A stretch of DNA of 32,198 nucleotides from Methylococcaceae bacterium (lineage in GTDB: Bacteria; Pseudomonadota; Gammaproteobacteria; Methylococcales; Methylomonadaceae), in the NCBI GenBank assembly GCA_029937975.1, contig JAPYOW010000014.1, positions 8,591-40,788 on the forward strand, written 5' to 3'. Below the pieces are notes generated by a model. The model worked only from the letters and a program-made list of their open reading frames with translations, ran no database searches and was not told the DNA's origin. Positions within the stretch are counted from its first letter, which is position 1; every line of letters begins with the position of its first letter. Of this stretch, positions 1 through 8,310 are shown piece after piece. A program made the position numbers and the translations under genes.

Positions 1-56
1 TATGGGCAATGTTGACCTGATTTAAAGGCGTATTCTTGGTTTTAATGGGTTTTAAC

Positions 57-89
57 AAAAAGGTAGCTTAGAGATCAGCTGCCTTTTTT
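57..89 (+). terminator. Rho-independent terminator of an upstream gene outside the window
   Basis: An A-rich arm with GGTAGCT (62-68) pairs with AGCTGCC (77-83), with one G-U pair, around an 8-nt loop, and is followed by six T. The A tract on the left extends the stem into the T tract. No gene is visible to its left within 56 nt, so it probably ends a rightward gene that stops before the window. Confidence 0.7.
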
Positions 90-639
90 GTTTTTTGCTC
101 AGGGTTCAGCTAATGAGGGTCGTGCTTTTAATTACCCCCGGTGGTTTTTACTGCGTCCAGCGGTCGTGTGTTTAGAGGCCATAGAGGGTGTTAAGCCTTA
201 GTCAGTCGTGCTGAAAACAGTTTTAGGTAGTCACTAGTTGATGTTCCCGCCATTCAGCCCCTTTAAGCGTATAGGTCGCACTGGTTTTACTGGCTGTATG
301 TCTCTGTTAAGTTCTGGGTTTTGCCTCAATGTATCGATGACAGTGTTTAAAATGCGACAAAACCGAGGTTAAATGTCGTTTTTATCGGTGTCAAACTGAC
401 TCTTTATTGATAGCCCAGCAACCTTGTGCGTTGACGGCGGTTCCGTTGGTGGAATTAAGGTGTTCGGCATGACGACCAGCAAAATACTCTTTTGATCAGC
501 ATTTATTTTCTTTAAATACACTGGGTTTAATTATTACGCTGTCAGGGAAAGAGTGGTTTTTATACTGTAAACATTCACCTTTGTTGGATAGCATGAAATA
601 ATAGACAGATTAGGTTGAACAATTAATAAGGTGTCTTAA
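90..639. other. Gene-poor intergenic stretch
   Basis: About 550 nt with no open frame that looks coding on either strand and no recognisable RNA gene. Stop codons occur in all frames. No convincing sigma-70 promoter was found for the Sel1 gene at its right end, although TTGTTG/TTGGAT-like hexamers occur near 581-589. Confidence 0.5.
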
Positions 640-1101
640 ATGTCTAGAGTAATGAAATGTGTGTTGATTTTATATTGTTTGCTTTTCAGTCTTGTTGCTG
701 GTGCGCAAACAACCGAGGAAATTCAGCAATTGGCTGAACAAGGCGATGCTTTGGGTCAGGCTAAATTAGCTTCGCTTTATATTTTAGGGAAAAATGGTGT
801 AAAGCCTGATAAAAAAAAGGCTGCAGCCTGGATGAAGAAGGCCGCAAAACAAGGTTTGGTAGAGGCTCAGGCAACATTGGCAGCAATGTATGATATTGGG
901 TATGGTTTACGAAGCGATAGAAGCCAGTCAACTCAATGGTATGAAAAAGCAGCCGAGCAAGGTCACGGTACTTCGATGGCTGTTTTAGGTATAAACCCGA
1001 CAGCCAAAGGTAGTGTCCAGTTTAGTTACAAGTCTATGCGCTTGAATGCATCCAAATCCATTCCGCGAGGATACGCAAAAAGATTTTTAAAAAAGAAATA
1101 A
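640..1101 (+). CDS. Small exported Sel1-repeat protein
   Basis: A 153-residue protein. Residues 1-22 form a signal peptide (basic MSRVMK, hydrophobic core, cleavage near VAGAQ), so it is probably periplasmic. Residues ~37-72 and ~73-108 are two Sel1-like (TPR-related) repeats with the A-x-x-x-L-A-x-x-Y pattern, ending WMKKAAKQG and WYEKAAEQG. The basic tail (last 30 residues) has no recognised domain. Sel1 proteins usually act as protein-protein interaction scaffolds in the envelope; the partner here is unknown. The start is supported by AAGGTG at 628-633, six bases before the ATG. gltX begins 14 nt after its stop, so the two may be co-transcribed. Confidence 0.85.
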   Translation: MSRVMKCVLILYCLLFSLVAGAQTTEEIQQLAEQGDALGQAKLASLYILGKNGVKPDKKKAAAWMKKAAKQGLVEAQATLAAMYDIGYGLRSDRSQSTQWYEKAAEQGHGTSMAVLGINPTAKGSVQFSYKSMRLNASKSIPRGYAKRFLKKK

Positions 1102-1115
1102 ACAATACTTAATTA

Positions 1116-2522
1116 ATGACAATAAAAACACGCTTTGCCCCGAGTCCAACGGGGTATCTACATGTCGGTGGTGCAAGAACTGCTCTGTTTTCCTGGTTAT
1201 ACGCACGTAAACAGGGGGGGGAATTCATCTTAAGGATTGAAGATACGGATTTAGAACGTTCAACACAAGCCTCTGTTGACGCAATTTTTGATGGCATGAA
1301 CTGGTTGGGTTTAGCTCATGATACCGGTCCTTTTTATCAAACGCAGCGATTTGATCGCTACCAAGAGATTATTCAGCAATTGCTCGACCAGGGTGATGCC
1401 TACCATTGTACATGTAGTCGTGAAGAGCTGGATCAACTCAGAGAACAGCAGAAAGCCAATAAGGAAAAACCCCGATATAACGGTAAATGCCGGTCTGCTA
1501 ACATCAGTTCAGAGCATGAAGCGGTGATACGGTTTAAGAATCCTGTGGGCGGTGAGGTCATCATAAGCGACTTGGTCAAAGGCACTATTACAGTTGCTAA
1601 CAAGGAGCTGGATGATTTAATTATTGCGCGTTCGGATGGCACCCCCACCTATAACCTGACGGTGGTGGTTGATGATATGGATATGGGGGTTTCTCATGTC
1701 ATCAGAGGCGATGATCATATCAATAACACCCCACGGCAAATTAATATTTTAAAGGCTTTGCAAGCCCCTTTGCCCTACTATGCACATGTCCCTATGATTC
1801 TAGGATCTGATGGTGCCAGACTATCTAAAAGACATGGTGCGGTAAGCGTAATGCAATATCGTGACGAGGGTTATTTGCCAGATGCACTGTTGAATTATCT
1901 AGTGCGTCTGGGCTGGTCGCATGGTGATCAGGAGATTTTTTCAATAGATGAAATGATCGCGTTGTTTGAGCTGAAAGATGTCAATGTTTCTGCATCTACC
2001 TTTAACCCGGAAAAATTATTATGGCTCAATCACCAGTATATTATGAACAGCAAGCCAGAGCATGTTGCCCATCATTTGCAATGGCATATGGATCATCAGG
2101 GGATAGACTGTCATAACGGACCTGAGTTGGTGGATATCGTTAAAGCGCAAAGAGAGCGTAGTAAAACGCTGGTAGAAATGGCAGCAGCCAGTCATTATTT
2201 TTATCAAGAATTTGAAGCTTATGATGAAAAGGCGGCCAAGAAAAATTTCAAACAAGGTGCGGATGATGTTTTACAACATTTGATGGATGAATTTAGCAAA
2301 CTGGAGCAGTGGGATGGTGAAAAATTACATCAAATTGTTTTGGATGCAGTAGAAGTGTTGGCGCTCAAATTAGGTAAAGTGGCGCAGCCTTTGCGTGTAG
2401 CCATTTCTGGGTCTGGTGTTTCCCCAGCCATTGATGTAACATTAGCTTTATTAGGAAGAGAGAAAACATTGGCAAGAATGTCGAGAGCCATTGAATTTAT
2501 AAAAGAAAAAAATAAAGTGTAG
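1116..2522 (+). CDS. gltX: Glutamyl-tRNA synthetase
   Basis: Class I aminoacyl-tRNA synthetase, 468 residues, the usual length for the bacterial enzyme. It charges tRNA-Glu with glutamate in the cytosol. The HIGH-type motif HVGG is at residues 16-19 within [17 protein letters not shown], and the KMSKS-type motif LSKRH at 236-240. Cys98, Cys100 and Cys125 match three ligands of the zinc site described for E. coli GltX, but the expected His127 is Ser. The anticodon-binding helical region follows to the C terminus. There is no clear Shine-Dalgarno sequence before the ATG, and the gene may depend on coupling to the Sel1 gene. A run of eight G lies in codons 33-36. tRNA-Glu lies about 145 nt downstream, so enzyme and substrate tRNA are neighbours. 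Confidence 0.97.
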
Positions 2523-2547
2523 ACAAGGCAGGGAAAGGCTGTATAAT
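2520..2547 (+). promoter_or_regulatory. Promoter of the tRNA-Ala/tRNA-Glu unit
   Basis: A -35-like TAGACA (2520-2525) and a perfect -10 TATAAT (2542-2547) are separated by 16 nt, with the predicted start just before the tRNA at 2564. The -35 overlaps the gltX stop codon, so the tRNAs can be transcribed independently of gltX. Confidence 0.6.
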
Positions 2548-2563
2548 TGTCGAACTCAACTAA

Positions 2564-2639
2564 GGGGCCATAGCTCAATTGGGAGAGCGCAACACTGGCA
2601 GTGTTGAGGTCGGCGGTTCGATCCCGCCTGGCTCCACCA
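2564..2639 (+). tRNA. tRNA-Ala (anticodon GGC)
   Basis: A 76-nt cloverleaf. Acceptor GGGGCCA (2564-2570) pairs with TGGCTCC (2629-2635) with one G-U pair. D stem GCTC/GAGC is at 2573-2588. Anticodon stem CAACA/TGTTG flanks the loop CTGGCAG, giving anticodon GGC (2597-2599). The T arm contains GGTTCGATCC, and CCA is encoded at 2637-2639. Confidence 0.96.
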
Positions 2640-2667
2640 AATTTGGTTCAATGTAGAAACAGTCTTA

Positions 2668-2743
2668 GTCCCCATCGTCTAGAGGCCTAGGACACCGCCC
2701 TTTCACGGCGGTAACGGGGGTTCGAACCCCCCTGGGGACGCCA
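2668..2743 (+). tRNA. tRNA-Glu (anticodon TTC)
   Basis: A 76-nt cloverleaf. Acceptor GTCCCCA (2668-2674) pairs with TGGGGAC (2733-2739). Anticodon stem CCGCC/GGCGG encloses CTTTCAC, giving anticodon TTC (2702-2704). The T arm contains GGTTCGAACC, and CCA is encoded at 2741-2743. It lies 28 nt after tRNA-Ala and is probably processed from the same transcript. Confidence 0.96.
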
Positions 2744-2748
2744 TATAT

Positions 2749-2784
2749 AAAACCCCTCTGCTCATTGAGCAGAGGGGTTTTTTT
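2749..2784 (+). terminator. Strong terminator after the tRNA pair
   Basis: A perfect 13-bp stem, AACCCCTCTGCTC (2751-2763) with GAGCAGAGGGGTT (2767-2779), has a 3-nt ATT loop and ends in a run of seven T (2778-2784). Confidence 0.93.
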
Positions 2785-3204
2785 ATGTCTGTTGTTTATC
2801 GGGATCGATGCCTTTGCGAGTTGTTGCTGTCCATGGCAAGGTGCAGACAGACGCTATTGGTTTGAAAATCATCACGTATCACATTTCAATCTGGCATGGT
2901 CTTTGTAAGTCCAGAAATCTCTCCGTAGCCGGTACGATAGCGAGCAACCCGTTTGTGTCGGCGGCCTGGTTTTTAACTTTTTAAAGGGTGTGTTTGTCAG
3001 TATATGGCGCAGCCCGGATTCCATTGGCTGCGAGTGTTTTTTAAGACCTGCTGGTATAAGCGTATGTCTAGGCGTAGGCGTGAATAACGGACAATCCATC
3101 AGGCACGGCATGCCATTCCATTCCATTCAGGCAAGAGCAGAGCAATAGTTGGCTGGTCTAAAGCTGTGGGCTATTGCCCTGGCAAGGTTTTAAACAGTAA
3201 AAAA
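2785..3204. other. Intergenic stretch downstream of the SUMF1-fold gene
   Basis: About 420 nt with no recognisable gene. An 84-codon leftward frame (2872-3126) has no recognisable domain. One hairpin is visible: CGCAGCC (3008-3014) with GGCTGCG (3026-3032). A short ATTCC microrepeat lies near 3113-3127. It contains no copy of the adenine-rich template repeat, nor any reverse transcriptase, that would be expected beside a complete diversity-generating retroelement. Confidence 0.5.
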
Positions 3205-4104
3205 TTAACGTGTTCTGGCTAGGCGGAAGCCTAGATAGTAATCGACATTGTCTGGGCTGAATCCGAGGCGATTCGTTGAGCGCAGGTAGAGGGCATAGAA
3301 GAACCAGCTGCCACCCCGGAGAACGCGGAAGGAGCCATCTGCTGCACCTTTGGGATTATGGATGGGGCTGTTGCAGTAATAATCACCATCATACCAGTCT
3401 TGTACCCATTCCCATACATTGCCACTCATATCATAAAGGCCTAGTTCGTTGGCCTGTTTTTGGCCTACCTTATGGGTGGTGCCGCCGGCATTAATATCAT
3501 ACCAGCCGACACTGTCCGCAGAGCCACTACCACAATAGTTTTGCTCTTTTCCTCCGCTACGGCAGGCATATTCCCATTCGGCTTCTGTGGGTAGGCGATA
3601 GTGTTGTCCGGTCTGTTGATTCAGTTTGCGAATAAACTCCTGAACTTCATCCCAGCTGACCTGTTCTACCGGATGGTTACTGTGTTTGAAATAGGATGGG
3701 TTATCCCCCATCACTTGTTGCCATTGCGCCTGGGTCACTTCGTATTTACCCATTTCATAAGCACTTAAGCATACCGGATGTACCGGTTTTTCATCATTGT
3801 ACTTATTACTCCCCATTTGAAAGCAACCCGATGGGATGCTGATCATTGCCATGGTGCTGTAGTCATTTTCTGAAAGTTTTGCTGTGACAAGGGGTTGGCT
3901 CGCTTGGCTGAGTGGTTGTTTTGCTTGTAAAACACTAGGGCAGGGGGGGGCTGCTTGAGCAATTTTACACGCTTCAATCGCTAAATCACTGCAGACTTGC
4001 TCTTTCATATTTCCAGTCACATGGTCTTGGGCTAACACATCTGTGGTCTGGGCAAGAGCGCACACGGCCAACATAAGTATTATTTTTATATATGATTTAT
4101 TCAT
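3205..4104 (-). CDS. Exported SUMF1/C-type-lectin-fold protein, possible DGR target
   Basis: A 299-residue protein. Residues 1-26 form a signal peptide ending DVLAQ. A Cys-containing, Pro/Gln-rich linker runs to ~90. From ~residue 89 it is a formylglycine-generating-enzyme (SUMF1) domain: IPSGCFQMGS, HPVCLSAYEMGKYEVTQAQW, HPVEQVSWDEV, YRLPTEAEWEYACRSGG, LYDMSGNVWEWVQDWYDG, RVLRGGSW and LGFRLAR. The two catalytic cysteines expected after RGGS in true sulfatase-activating enzymes are absent (GGSWFFYALYLRSTNR instead), so it is more likely a ligand-binding member than an oxidase. Residues 268-290 have the pattern of a DGR variable region (see findings). Eight consecutive C in the coding strand (3943-3950) lie in the linker. 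It is flanked on both sides by long gene-free DNA. The function is inferred from the fold only. Confidence 0.9.
   Translation of the reverse strand: MNKSYIKIILMLAVCALAQTTDVLAQDHVTGNMKEQVCSDLAIEACKIAQAAPPCPSVLQAKQPLSQASQPLVTAKLSENDYSTMAMISIPSGCFQMGSNKYNDEKPVHPVCLSAYEMGKYEVTQAQWQQVMGDNPSYFKHSNHPVEQVSWDEVQEFIRKLNQQTGQHYRLPTEAEWEYACRSGGKEQNYCGSGSADSVGWYDINAGGTTHKVGQKQANELGLYDMSGNVWEWVQDWYDGDYYCNSPIHNPKGAADGSFRVLRGGSWFFYALYLRSTNRLGFSPDNVDYYLGFRLARTR
3219..3234. repeat. Inverted repeat with GGAA loop at the 3' end of the SUMF1-fold gene
   Basis: On the plus strand, CTAGGC (3219-3224), loop GGAA (3225-3228) and GCCTAG (3229-3234) form a perfect 6-bp stem with a tetraloop. It lies within codons 291-296 (LGFRLA), directly after the suspected variable positions. 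There is no T tract, so it is not a terminator. Hairpin/cruciform elements with short conserved loops are known next to the variable regions of phage-type DGRs; that role here is inference. Confidence 0.6.
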
Positions 4105-4169
4105 TGTCTTGTTCTCTTGGGTGAAGACTATGGCACGTGGTTCGAATCAACTTTGCACCCTCGGGGCTG

Positions 4170-4197
4170 AATATATCTTTAGTATAGGCAATGACAG
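4170..4197 (-). promoter_or_regulatory. Candidate promoter of the SUMF1-fold gene
   Basis: Read leftward: CTGTCA (4197-4192), a 16-nt spacer and TATATT (4175-4170), about 65 nt before the ATG. The hexamers match the consensus at 4/6 and 5/6 positions. Confidence 0.35.
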
Positions 4198-4790
4198 GCT
4201 TTAGGTGGTTTGGTCGGTTCGTGATCTTTTCAGGGTAATGGTGGTTGTCGGTCAGTTGTGCTTGTCTCATAACAATCCTTTTACGCATAAGGCCTGTTTA
4301 AACGGTTAAATGCAGTGAGCTGTATGCACTGTGTTGTGACAATGTCGCCAACTGTATTTTGTCTGTTTAAAGCCCGTGTTGATAAGCGGATACCCGCCTG
4401 TTTTGCAGGTGCATTTGTCATGATCTGTTGATAATAAACAGTAAGTTTTACTTCAATACTGGGCCATTATCATTTTTTGACTAAAAAAAGGCAGGTCAAT
4501 TCATAAAACAGGCAGATTATTCGGTCAGGTTGCATATGCCGGCTAGCGCTGGCTTGCTGTTTGAGTCAGGAAGCAAGGGCAAGAGTTTTCCGGTTTGTTG
4601 GGTTGTCTGGACGAAAGGAGTTATTGCGACTTAAAAACCAGCTAAAAAGAATTTAACCTGCCTTAATGAGTTGGTGGGGGGTAAGTGCTAGTCAGTGGAT
4701 CTATATGAAGTCCCTGAGATGCTCTCAGGCTTGTCGGTTGCCGGTGTTGAGGGGTAAGCCTGCCTCAATCAGTTTATACGATAGGGGTGC

Positions 4791-4818
4791 TTGCTAAAGA
4801 CGCGGTCAGGCTTATAAT
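4791..4818 (+). promoter_or_regulatory. Orphan sigma-70-like promoter facing ypjD's 3' end
   Basis: TTGCTA (4791-4796), a 16-nt spacer and a perfect TATAAT (4813-4818), predicting a start near 4825. No rightward gene follows. Transcription would run into the antisense strand of ypjD (from 4906), so the product would be a small or antisense RNA. This could be a chance match. Confidence 0.4.
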
Positions 4819-4905
4819 GTCGGGCTTTTTCACTGTTGGCGAGGGCTGTGCTGATGTCAGTTGCTAGGGTAAGGTTTTACTTTACGTCAACAGGGCGTGC
4901 ATGGC

Positions 4906-5703
4906 TTATGTCTTTTGTAAAATGAGTTCCAGAGCTAATTTACTGCCAAAATAAGCAAGCAATAGGGAGGTAAAGCCAATCAAGGTCCATTGAATGGCTG
5001 TTTGCCCTCTCCATCCATAACGGCTACGACCATAGAGTAAGGCTGAAAAAATCAGCCATGCCAAAATAGACAAGACGGTTTTATGGGCAAGATGTTGGGC
5101 AAATAAATCATCAATAAAGATAAACCCGCTGAATAAAGAAACAGTCAGAAAAATGACCCCTGTGCTTATGAGCTGGAATAACAGTGATTCCATAGTTTGC
5201 AGTGGGGGTAGGGTCAGGATGATTTTTCGCGGGGGGTGTTTTCTTAGTTGTTGTTCTTGAATGGATAGGAAAATAGCTTGTAAGGCGGCAATATTTAATA
5301 AGCTGAAAGCAATGATTGAGCTGAAAATGTGTGTATTCATTTGCCAGCTATAGTTTTGTATAGTCTGGATGGTGGTGGGGTAAACCAGGGTCAGGGTTAG
5401 CATGAGGACGGCAAGAGGGAAAATGGCAACGCCCAGTTTGTCGATTGGTTTACTCAGGCTGAGCAATAGCAATAAAAGCGCAATGATGGCGGTAATGGTC
5501 GAGCCAATGCTAAAAAAACCAAAGTCCAATGCGTTGTGTTGCAGGGATGTTGTAGTTATGTATGCAAAGTGTGAAAAAACGGCCATCCATCCTGGGTAGA
5601 TAGAATGAATGTGTGATTTTTCTTTGATAATGTCTGCTGATAACAGTACGGTACTTATCACATAACAGCTAATCGATAGGATGCCAATAGTTAAAGGGGA
5701 CAT
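4906..5703 (-). CDS. ypjD: CcsA/YpjD-family inner-membrane protein
   Basis: A 265-residue, very hydrophobic protein with about eight predicted membrane segments. It belongs to the cytochrome-c-assembly (CcsA/CcmC-like) superfamily, in the short YpjD subgroup, and lacks a WWD-type haem-handling motif. Histidines in membrane-proximal positions are visible (FSHFAYI, NTHIFSS, AHKTVLS). YpjD proteins have been linked to inner-membrane haem-related or stress functions, but their reaction is unsettled. It lies divergent from ffh, the arrangement seen in E. coli and many other Gammaproteobacteria, which supports the assignment. ATG start at 5703. Confidence 0.85.
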   Translation of the reverse strand: MSPLTIGILSISCYVISTVLLSADIIKEKSHIHSIYPGWMAVFSHFAYITTTSLQHNALDFGFFSIGSTITAIIALLLLLLSLSKPIDKLGVAIFPLAVLMLTLTLVYPTTIQTIQNYSWQMNTHIFSSIIAFSLLNIAALQAIFLSIQEQQLRKHPPRKIILTLPPLQTMESLLFQLISTGVIFLTVSLFSGFIFIDDLFAQHLAHKTVLSILAWLIFSALLYGRSRYGWRGQTAIQWTLIGFTSLLLAYFGSKLALELILQKT

Positions 5704-6018
5704 AATTTGCTCTTTTTGCGTTCAGTAAGCTAATGAAAATGAGTTGTTAACAAGGCACCATAAAGAAGGGTGTGATTGAAAACGGCAGTTTAGCGGCGAA
5801 ATGTGTGCCTGCGGATCGGACTTCAATTCGCAATGCCCGCAGAAACTTAGTGGGCTAGTGCCCAACCTATAGTACTGTCTTTTATAGTTTGCTGTATTTC
5901 TTTCAGTTGCTCATTAAAAACCGCAACTGTTGCTATTCACGGACTATGTTAATATATTCGATTACATAGTCATAGTGTAAAAAACTCAGATTGACTTAAT
6001 TTAAAATAAGATGGCGAT
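5704..6018. other. Divergent control region between ypjD and ffh
   Basis: 315 nt without a gene. Visible structures are CTGCGG (5809-5814) pairing with CCGCAG (5837-5842), TGGGC-TAGT-GCCCA (5851-5864), and a dyad around the proposed ffh -10 (5943-5970). CATAGT is directly repeated at 5965-5970 and 5971-5976. Confidence 0.45.
5930..5958 (+). promoter_or_regulatory. Candidate ffh promoter with overlapping dyad
   Basis: TTGCTA (5930-5935), 17-nt spacer, TATATT (5953-5958), about 60 nt before the ffh ATG. An inverted repeat ACTATGT (5943-5949) / ACATAGT (5964-5970) brackets the -10 box and could be an operator. Confidence 0.45.
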
Positions 6019-7374
6019 ATGTTTGATAATTTAACCGACCGATTAAGTAGTACCCTTAAGGATTTAAAGGGCAAGGGGAAGCTCACTGAGAGCAACATTA
6101 AGGATACCTTGCATGAGGTGCGGATAGCTCTGCTTGAGGCAGATGTGGCTTTGTCTGTTGTGACTGACTTTGTTGATAACGTGAAAGAGGGAGCCTTGGG
6201 TAAAAAGGTTCAATTAAGTCTGAATCCAGGGCAAGCGTTAGTTAAGTTGGTTCAGGCTGAGTTGGTACGTGTTATGGGAGAGGCGAATCAGGAATTAGAC
6301 CTGAAAGCCAATCCTCCTGCCATCATTTTAATGGCGGGTTTACAAGGTGCGGGTAAAACCACCACAGTAGCTAAACTAGGTCGGTGGTTACAAGAGACGA
6401 AAAAGAAAAAAGTCGGTGTGGTAAGTGCCGATGTCTATCGTCCGGCAGCGATTAAACAATTGCAAACATTGGCAGAAGATACCAATCTGGTGTTTTTTGA
6501 GAGTGATGTGTCACAAAAGCCTGTTGATATTGCGGTCAATGCCATTGAAGCGGCGAAAAAACAGTTTCTGGATGTGGTCATCGTGGATACCGCCGGTCGT
6601 TTACATGTCGATGATGAGATGATGGGCGAAATTAAGGCCTTGCATGCAGCGATTAATCCTGTTGAAACATTATTCGTTGTGGATAGTATGACGGGGCAGG
6701 ATGCGGCCGTCACCGCCAAGGCCTTTAATGATGCATTGCCTTTGACAGGTGTGGTACTGACCAAGGCCGATGGGGATGCGAGAGGGGGTGCGGCATTATC
6801 TATCAGGCATGTTACAGGTAAGCCGATTAAATTCATTGGTATGGGTGAGAAAACCGATGCCCTGGAACCGTTTTATCCGGAAAGAATTGCTTCCCGTATC
6901 TTGGGTATGGGTGATATGCTTTCTCTGATTGAAGAGATTGAGCAGACAGCGGATAAGAAAAAAGCGGCTAAGCTGGCTAGAAAAGTTAAAAAAGGCAAGG
7001 GATTTGATTTTAACGATTTTAAAGATCAGTTGCTGCAAATGGAAAAAATGGGTGGAGTGGGCGCTATGTTGGATAAATTGCCGGGTATGGCCAATGTGTC
7101 GCAGGAAACGAAAGATAAAATCAATGATAAGGAATTATCACGACAAGTTGCAGTGATTAATTCAATGACTTTGCAAGAAAGGCGTTACCCGGAGTTAATT
7201 AAGGGTAACCGGAAAAAACGGATTGCCGCAGGTTGTGGTCAGGAATTACAGGATGTTAACCGGATGTTGAAGCAGCATAAAATGATGCAGAAGATGATGA
7301 AGAAATTTGCTAAGGGCAATGCGGCAAATATGGTGCGAGGCATTAAGAATAATATGCGCGGCATGCGAATGTAA
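6019..7374 (+). CDS. ffh: Signal recognition particle protein Ffh
   Basis: A 451-residue SRP54-family GTPase. With 4.5S RNA it binds signal sequences of nascent inner-membrane and exported proteins and brings ribosomes to FtsY. The N domain is ~1-95. G-domain motifs are GLQGAGKTTT (107-116), DTAGR (190-194) and TKADGDARGGA (248-258). The Met-rich M domain starts near 300, with the RNA-binding stretch around RRYPELIKGNRKKRIAAG followed by MMQKMMKKF and MVRGIKNNMRGMRM. Length is normal. The Shine-Dalgarno is weak (AAGATGG at 6008-6014). It heads the cluster with rpsP-rimM-trmD-rplS, although a 155-nt gap suggests that rpsP has its own promoter. Confidence 0.98.
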   Translation: MFDNLTDRLSSTLKDLKGKGKLTESNIKDTLHEVRIALLEADVALSVVTDFVDNVKEGALGKKVQLSLNPGQALVKLVQAELVRVMGEANQELDLKANPPAIILMAGLQGAGKTTTVAKLGRWLQETKKKKVGVVSADVYRPAAIKQLQTLAEDTNLVFFESDVSQKPVDIAVNAIEAAKKQFLDVVIVDTAGRLHVDDEMMGEIKALHAAINPVETLFVVDSMTGQDAAVTAKAFNDALPLTGVVLTKADGDARGGAALSIRHVTGKPIKFIGMGEKTDALEPFYPERIASRILGMGDMLSLIEEIEQTADKKKAAKLARKVKKGKGFDFNDFKDQLLQMEKMGGVGAMLDKLPGMANVSQETKDKINDKELSRQVAVINSMTLQERRYPELIKGNRKKRIAAGCGQELQDVNRMLKQHKMMQKMMKKFAKGNAANMVRGIKNNMRGMRM

Positions 7375-7483
7375 GAAGGCGCTATAGTCGGTGAAATTAA
7401 GCCGGAAAGGTGATATTTATTTGAGGTCATTAATTATTTAAGCTTAATGATTAAATAATATTTCCTATCTATAGAAAATCGCG

Positions 7484-7489
7484 TAGAAT
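7484..7489 (+). promoter_or_regulatory. Weak candidate -10 element before rpsP
   Basis: TAGAAT (7484-7489) with a poor -35 (TTTCCT, 7461-7466) at 17 nt. An AT-rich perfect dyad ATTATTTAA (7433-7441) / TTAAATAAT (7451-7459) lies just upstream. The 7375-7529 gap contains no gene. Confidence 0.3.
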
Positions 7490-7529
7490 AAGCGGATTAA
7501 ATTTTGATTGAATACTTTAAGGTAACTAC

Positions 7530-7781
7530 ATGGTAACTATTCGTCTTGCAAGAGGTGGTTCGAAAAATCGCCCTTTTTATCACGTCGTTGTAACAGACAG
7601 CAGAAACAGTCGTGATGGTCGTTATATTGAGCGTCTAGGTTTTTTTAACCCATTTGCTCGTGGTAACGAAGAAAGATTACGCTTAGAAGATGAGCGTATC
7701 ACTTATTGGAGATCTGTAGGTGCACAACCTTCGGATCGTGTTGCACGATTACTTAAAGACGCAGTAAAAGCAGCCGCATAA
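7530..7781 (+). CDS. rpsP: 30S ribosomal protein S16
   Basis: An 83-residue protein starting [10 protein letters not shown], with the typical [15 protein letters not shown] core. It is a structural and assembly protein of the small subunit. The start is supported by AAGGT (7518-7523 region) six to seven bases upstream. It is the first gene of the conserved rpsP-rimM-trmD-rplS operon; rimM starts 19 nt after its stop. Confidence 0.98.
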
Positions 7782-7800
7782 ATAATTTTTAGGCAGTATT

Positions 7801-8310
7801 TTGTCCGATAGTGAACTTCTGAAAGTAGGTGAAATATCCGGTGTCTTTGGAATCAAAGGCTGGGTTAAAATTTATTCGTTGACCGATCCGAGAGAGAATA
7901 TTTTAAATTATTCTCCCTGGGTTCTAAAAAAAGGCAATGATAGCAAACGGGTTCATGTGGTGAATGGAAAACGCCAAGGAAAATCTGTTGTTGTTTGTCT
8001 GGAAGGTGTTGACGATAGGGATGTTGCCAGTTCGTTTTGTGGCTGGGAAATTCTAATCGAAAAGAGTCAGTTGCCAAAGTCGGCAAACGGTGAATTTTAC
8101 TGGGCGGACCTTGTTGGTTTGAGGGTGGAAACGGAGTCAGGGATTGCCCTGGGTGTGGTTGATCATCTGATTGAGACAGGGGCTAATGATGTGCTTGTGG
8201 TTAAGGATGATGAACGCGAACGCTTGGTGCCTTTTTTGCACGAACAAACTATCAAAAAGATTGATCTTGAACAGAAGTTGATGATTGTTGACTGGGATCC
8301 TGATTTTTGA
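7801..8310 (+). CDS. rimM: Ribosome maturation factor RimM
   Basis: A 169-residue protein that binds S19 and assists maturation of the 30S head. The N-terminal RimM domain starts LKVGEISGVFGIKGWVKIYSL, and the C-terminal PRC-barrel has FYWADLVGLRV and VVKDDERERLVPFL. The start codon is TTG (7801), with AGG at 7791-7793 seven bases before it. There is no in-frame ATG in the conserved N terminus, and the encoded start aligns with known RimM proteins, so TTG is well supported. It ends 18 nt before trmD. Confidence 0.96.
   Translation: MSDSELLKVGEISGVFGIKGWVKIYSLTDPRENILNYSPWVLKKGNDSKRVHVVNGKRQGKSVVVCLEGVDDRDVASSFCGWEILIEKSQLPKSANGEFYWADLVGLRVETESGIALGVVDHLIETGANDVLVVKDDERERLVPFLHEQTIKKIDLEQKLMIVDWDPDF

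Follow-up and report, generated by a model that had tools for sequence, protein, structure and literature searches.

A gene at 3205-4104 on the minus strand of a stretch of Methylococcaceae DNA encodes, on the reading that we favor at slightly less than even confidence, a binding protein derived from a diversity-generating retroelement (DGR) that is now orphaned and probably frozen. The whole 32,198-nucleotide stretch is referred to here as the window. The encoded protein has an FGE fold, shares its C-terminal frame with DGR templates, lacks the catalytic cysteine pair of FGE and shows an excess of C-ending codons in its C-terminal segment; neither a reverse transcriptase (RT) nor a template was found in the source assembly, and relatives carry DGRs of the right type. 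Active hypermutation of the segment is not supported.

An FGE-fold protein with a segment resembling a variable region

The gene and its surroundings comprise the following features:

3205-4104 (-): FGE/SUMF1 (C-type-lectin) fold protein of 299 aa, from the ORF and its translation; proposed orphan DGR-type variable protein
4027-4104 (-): hydrophobic, signal-peptide-like N-terminus, residues 1-26, from the sequence and a predicted helix at residues 3-23
3214-3852 (-): FGE-sulfatase domain, residues 85-297, from hmmscan (PF03781, E 2.3e-51)
3217-3318 (-): segment resembling a variable region (VR), RGGSW...LGFRLA, residues 263-296, of which 12 codons are putatively variable, from codons, template frame and C3 excess (see below)
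3219-3234 (-): hairpin CTAGGC-TTCC-GCCTAG (stem 6 bp, loop 4 nt) at the 3' end of the VR-like segment, from the sequence
2564-2743 (+): tRNA-Ala (2564-2639) and tRNA-Glu (2668-2743) on the gene's downstream side, from ARAGORN
4906-5703 (-): conserved neighbor on the gene's other side, a membrane protein, from matches in eight of nine genus genomes

The original prediction had read positions 3222-3330, which correspond to codons 259-295 of the ORF, as the VR of a DGR target. A codon table reproduced the gene, frame, coordinates and codons that it gave. Residues 263-296, near the C-terminus, read RGGSWFFYALYLRSTNRLGFSPDNVDYYLGFRLA, and the 12 named codons are TTC, TTC, TAT, CTC, TAC, CTC, GGA, TTC, GTC, GAT, TAC and TAT, of which 11 end in C or T. 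The SUMF1 fold was also called correctly, and the VR-like segment is placed C-terminally as in DGR targets. From its sequence, the protein is probably secreted or exported.

An AlphaFold2 model built from 32 sequences had a mean pLDDT of 85, with values above 90 from about residue 91 on. Its best fold match was TvpA of Treponema denticola (PDB 2Y3C; Z 33.6, rmsd 1.7 over 218), ahead of PvdO (Z 29.8), FGE (28.5), EgtB (22.3) and Mtd (15), and TvpA was also the best sequence match (E 4.3e-34). Both proteins have the FGE-type C-lectin fold, a VR or VR-like segment at the C-terminus and the frame RGGSW...SP....LGFRLA. Similarity to TvpA was nevertheless rejected as evidence of DGR origin, since the conserved relatives L006 and L047 have TvpA as their best PDB match as well, and so does a DGR-linked target. 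Two differences separate the systems: the T. denticola variable proteins carry predicted lipoprotein signals, according to PMC4891356, unlike the window protein, and no RT or template repeat (TR) was found in the window's assembly.

FGE (SUMF1), PvdO and EgtB share the fold of the window protein, which falls well short of the curated score cut-offs for both PvdO and EgtB. The catalytic cysteine pair is that of FGE and is absent here, as had been predicted. In an alignment to human FGE, whose catalytic cysteines we take to be numbered 336 and 341 (cf. the titles of C336S/C341S structure entries), Phe269 takes the place of Cys336, and the part that holds Cys341 belongs to an insertion missing from the window protein. 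Since Phe269 aligns to Cys336, the variable patch occupies the place of the FGE active site.

The gene sits between tRNA-Glu and the conserved membrane-protein gene, whose product (4906-5703, -) we take to be cytochrome c assembly-like. When seven other loci of the genus were compared with window positions 1-8000, only the 4906-5703 gene and the 5915-7374 side aligned. Directly after tRNA-Glu, a perfect 16-bp inverted repeat with Ts behind it (2749-2781) is a likely transcription terminator. At the place of the window's FGE gene in the same-genus genome G001, a large ORF (L265:2363-3793, -) adjoins the conserved neighbor; its product presumably resembles a portion of the HsdR subunit of type I restriction enzymes.

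Codon composition of the VR-like segment

The segment had been described as richer in C-ending codons than neighboring genes, with TTC for every Phe, and this held. C occupies the third position in 19 of 34 VR codons (263-296) and in 73 of the gene's 261 other codons (Fisher p 0.0015). TTC encodes Phe in 4/4 cases in the VR and 2/4 elsewhere in the gene, compared to 14% of the 137 Phe codons of ten other genes in the window; CTC, used twice in the VR, accounts for 6% of the 464 Leu codons in those ten genes. The C-richness of the VR is thus above chance against window-gene codon usage, whereas the bare count of 11 C/T-ending codons is not, when set against FGE-fold genes. At least 11 of the 12 codons end in C or T in 31 of 101 aligned FGE genes (the window's counted), among them the conserved genes L006, L060, L075, L078, L086 and L095. 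We therefore rejected this count, which the original prediction had taken as a sign of a DGR.

A second measure, the C3 statistic, relates the C-ending codons in the 33-residue VR to the number expected from the gene's own synonymous usage. Genes with a VR longer or shorter than 33 residues (e.g., L034) are absent from this statistic, from the C/T count and from the column-pair test described below; the C3 comparison also leaves out L094 (short upstream) and L015 (31-residue VR). The groups were set after the data were seen: DGR-linked targets have an RT or template in the same locus, and conserved genes are those whose near-identical VR recurs in another gene, together with the ordinary clade of a VR-free tree. 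The window gene scored z = 2.2, compared to medians of 2.84 for DGR-linked targets (n = 19), 0.48 for conserved genes (n = 30) and 2.3 for the 51 remaining genes; 16 of the 19 DGR-linked and four of the 30 conserved genes scored at or above this value. With the ten canonical Asn columns only, the excess in the window gene was weaker, with z = 1.57, and 18/19 DGR-linked and 7/30 conserved genes equalled or exceeded it. Three members of the conserved group, L035, L083 and L099, score as high as DGR-linked genes, and their VRs may be frozen. Overall, the C3 excess gives moderate support to a DGR-written past of the window VR.

The proposal of a DGR target stood in part: the fixed frame of RT-adjoining templates and the C3 excess agree with it, and its reading of all 12 codons as AAC/AAT altered at the adenines is doubtful for three. 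Judged by sequence, nine of the 12 codons fit common columns of 18 template-like sequences, and codons 272, 281 and 287 hardly do. The column of codon 272 (CTC) contains AAC in 1/18; that of codon 281 (GGA) contains AGG in ten, AAC in five and CAC/CAT in three, none of which becomes GGA by changes at A only; and that of codon 287 (GTC) contains CGN or GCN in 18/18. If AAY codons were the source, nearly all of their adenines would have changed and those at codons 277, 278 and 283-286 would have remained, a pattern not expected from uniform A-mutagenesis. The hairpin at 3219-3234 may be of DGR type or due to chance: among 119 aligned sequences the window gene alone has a 6-bp stem centered there, and DGR-linked genes have at most 3 bp.

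Search for a reverse transcriptase and template

The source assembly has 2,196,795 bases in 133 contigs and is 97.78% complete; the window lies on contig 123. The prediction had noted that no RT or template repeat is in the window, and this extended to the whole assembly, in which the proposed search for a near-identical template copy next to a DGR-type RT found neither. A PF00078 profile search for a DGR-type RT gave no matches in this 97.8%-complete assembly, and neither did a search with the RT of the same-genus genome G003 at E 1; the PF00078 model does detect the IGNL[TS]SQ-type RTs of G003, G007, G009 and G045. A search of the assembly for a template copy of the VR returned the VR itself and an 18-nt match (E 0.59, on C98) only, and the G003 template found nothing there better than E 0.57; a weak 36-residue match lies on C103. 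Control blastn searches of like length and search space recovered the template for 6/6 VRs (from five loci) at E 1e-31 or better, these pairs having first been found by identity, such that a very diverged template could still escape.

In a search of 237 family genomes, the VR matched only itself, 32 nt of G081 and an FGE homologue carried by G229. In viral contigs, two loci are related to the window protein (33% and 36%); 22 phage records match it below 60% identity and five plasmid records have partial FGE matches. RT relatives are present in 56 viral loci, and in pooled scans L208 alone of those reported has an FGE-like frame. An exact 18-nt stretch of the VR on the viral contig L302 was dismissed as a chance match, with no FGE frame. 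The literature searched yielded no paper covering both diversity-generating retroelements and Methylococcales; some papers mention DGRs together with the term methanotroph.

DGRs and templates in relatives

A DGR-type RT with the motif IGNLTSQ (RVT_1, E 1.9e-23; L144 3872-4876, -) is encoded in G003, and directly 3' of it lies the template RGGSWNNNARNLRSANRNNNSPDNRNNNLGFRL (L144:3715-4876, G003:C18). No second copy of this template, i.e., no VR partner, was found in the G003 draft genome. Its non-Asn residues agree with the window VR save in three columns (Arg/Leu, Ala/Thr and Arg/Val), and SPDN and LGFRL are common to both. At the DNA level the two differ at 39/99 positions, 17 at template adenines and 22 elsewhere; given these 22 mismatches at non-A positions, we rejected the G003 template as the direct template of the window VR. 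With a non-A-position agreement of 0.68 it is still the closest of the 18 template-like sequences, compared to a median of 0.72 between templates and 0.65 for the best non-template sequence, L035.

In 38 of 237 family genomes the G003 RT has matches with E values no higher than 1e-25, group II intron RTs probably being among them, and in several family genomes an FGE-type template adjoins such an RT. Differences between VR and template fall at template adenines in 15/15 cases for L053, 13/14 and 9/10 for L076, 11/12 for L094, 15/17 for L026 and 15/20 for L015. Of the genomes with other homologues, 47, drawn from 50 of 80 loci, were scanned with a profile built from DGR RTs; 17 of them gave matches with E values no higher than 1e-30, not all of which are DGR RTs.

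The same-genus genome G007 (L154:7255-8361, -; IGNLSSQ) and the genome G009 (L140) carry IGNLSSQ/IGNLTSQ-type RTs more distant from that of G003, and no FGE templates were found in these two loci. In a further RT-containing locus (L296, around position 1169; G285:C39), one strand carries a VR-like FGE frame and the opposite strand a frame richer in Asn, perhaps a VR and template in inverted orientation.

Homologues and candidate frozen variable regions

No homologue at E 1e-55 or better was found in the other genomes of this nine-genome genus; weaker FGE matches occur in G003, G004 and G008. Two same-genus genomes of similar size that are 98-99% complete, G001 and G002, have neither this gene nor an RVT_1 match, and no close strain carrying the window gene was found.

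The closest homologue in the family, in G190, is 58% identical over window residues 51-298. It is an 818-aa caspase-FGE fusion (L330 7259-9715, -) with an N-terminal Peptidase_C14 domain; the corresponding region of the window protein is short. Its VR has the same residue as the window VR in 18/21 fixed columns and differs in 10/12 variable columns. Compared with the VR of G194, another species of the same genus as G190, it shows 11 synonymous and two non-synonymous changes in 33 codons, and of the 12 VR codons 12 end in C or T in G190 and 11 in G194. By this pattern, the G190/G194 VR looks like a frozen, formerly written VR. In G190, listed as 100% complete, the G003 RT matched nothing at E 1e-25; this silence weighs little because RTs of the IGNL[TS]SQ type in G007 and G009 escaped the search at that threshold.

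The long homologues of G229 and G197 (L327, L332) resemble the G190 fusion N-terminally, by sequence alone. The caspase-FGE architecture is reminiscent of conflict-system sensors, a role that PMC10907252 discusses for FGE-fold targets. A remnant of the caspase part around the window gene was considered and rejected, as the long proteins of four relatives align to positions 2500-6000 by their FGE part only. Three further pairs of FGE genes from different species, L305/L306, L035/L038 and L086/L106, have 10-12 of 12 codons ending in C or T and 11 or 12 of 12 variable residues identical, and are candidate frozen VRs.

In the VR-free tree, the source-family genomes are mixed among named Methylococcaceae and Crenotrichaceae, which suggests a methanotroph-type gammaproteobacterium as the source. 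There the window protein falls in a supported 24-member clade that holds one DGR target (L053) and also the plainly conserved genes L047, L048 and L050; a second tree does not resolve its placement. A test of identity in variable versus fixed columns at first looked decisive, the ordinary group having then been chosen partly by its VR motif. Among pairs with at least 17/21 fixed columns alike, all five involving the window gene share at most 2/12 variable columns, compared to 0/35 inside the ordinary clade, 2/5 between this clade and others, and 32/49 among the rest. Once the group was taken from the VR-free tree and a cross-lineage control was used, this measure was non-discriminating as DGR evidence and was rejected: 311 of 374 cross-lineage pairs of ordinary genes also share at most 2/12 variable columns.

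Origin of the segment

The window gene might instead encode an ordinary non-catalytic FGE-fold protein that was never a DGR target, in which a conserved frame (RGGSW...R...P....GFR) leaves free positions between; we regard this as possible, if somewhat doubtful. Such an origin would agree with the attainment of 11/12 C/T-ending codons by conserved, non-diversified FGE genes, with the variable columns of ordinary cross-lineage pairs, with the poor template fit of codons 272, 281 and 287, with the lack of an RT and template in the source assembly, and with the predominantly synonymous VR changes between the nearest homologues in the family. It fits less well with a C3 excess above that of 26 of the 30 conserved genes, with the use of TTC and CTC that neighboring genes seldom employ, with a frame matching that of the same-genus template down to SPDN and LGFRL, and with the 5/5 close-frame window pairs that diverge in their variable columns, compared to 0/35 in the ordinary clade (2/5 and 32/49 in the other groups).

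The original prediction had envisaged a remote target. If live, it would be written in trans by an RT and template that the assembly has missed or that sit on a plasmid or phage outside the bin. We consider this improbable. Remote targets are described for T. denticola and cyanobacteria in PMC4891356 and PMC7517822, respectively; the source assembly, in 133 contigs, is short of complete; and drafts can miss a partner, as G003 has an RT and template and no second template copy. Against it stand the empty searches of the source assembly beside controls that recovered every template, the absence of both the gene and an RVT_1 match from G001 and G002, and the searches of 237 family genomes, which gave the VR itself, the G081 match and the G229 homologue only. 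Of the two findings that the prediction named as counting against it, the absence of RT and template was observed for the source assembly, and synonymous-dominated VR change was seen in another genus only (G190/G194).

Our preferred reading remains a DGR-derived protein that has been orphaned. The window gene would encode an exported binding protein of FGE/C-type-lectin fold whose C-terminal patch was written in the past by a DGR from an Asn-rich template, through A-directed mutagenesis and, presumably, retrohoming at the gene's 3' end. The RT and template would then have been lost, or may never have arrived with the gene when it was acquired, and the patch, rich in aromatic residues (F,F,Y / L,Y / L,G,F / V,D,Y,Y), would consequently have become fixed. 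The fixed patch may form one particular ligand-binding surface at the place of the FGE active site. There is a precedent in T. denticola, where isolates without RT and TR keep target genes, called leftovers in PMC4891356.

Implications

A broader proposition, which we hold to be rather unlikely as it stands, is that the FGE genes of this family and its neighbors include a class of frozen DGR VRs, kept by selection after loss of RT and template, to which the window gene and G190/G194 would belong, and perhaps L035/L038 and L086/L106. For genome scans, our results indicate that an FGE frame with C/T-ending codons is not in itself proof of a working DGR. Should the window VR be of DGR origin, its fixed aromatic patch on a stable scaffold would make ligand binding a concrete hypothesis, and the DGR of G003, whose template frame matches, would serve as a comparison system. 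Orphan targets of this kind would reveal the fate of a hypermutated binding site after loss of its mutator, and, on the broader proposition, DGRs would be not only continuous diversifiers but also generators of specificities that are fixed later.
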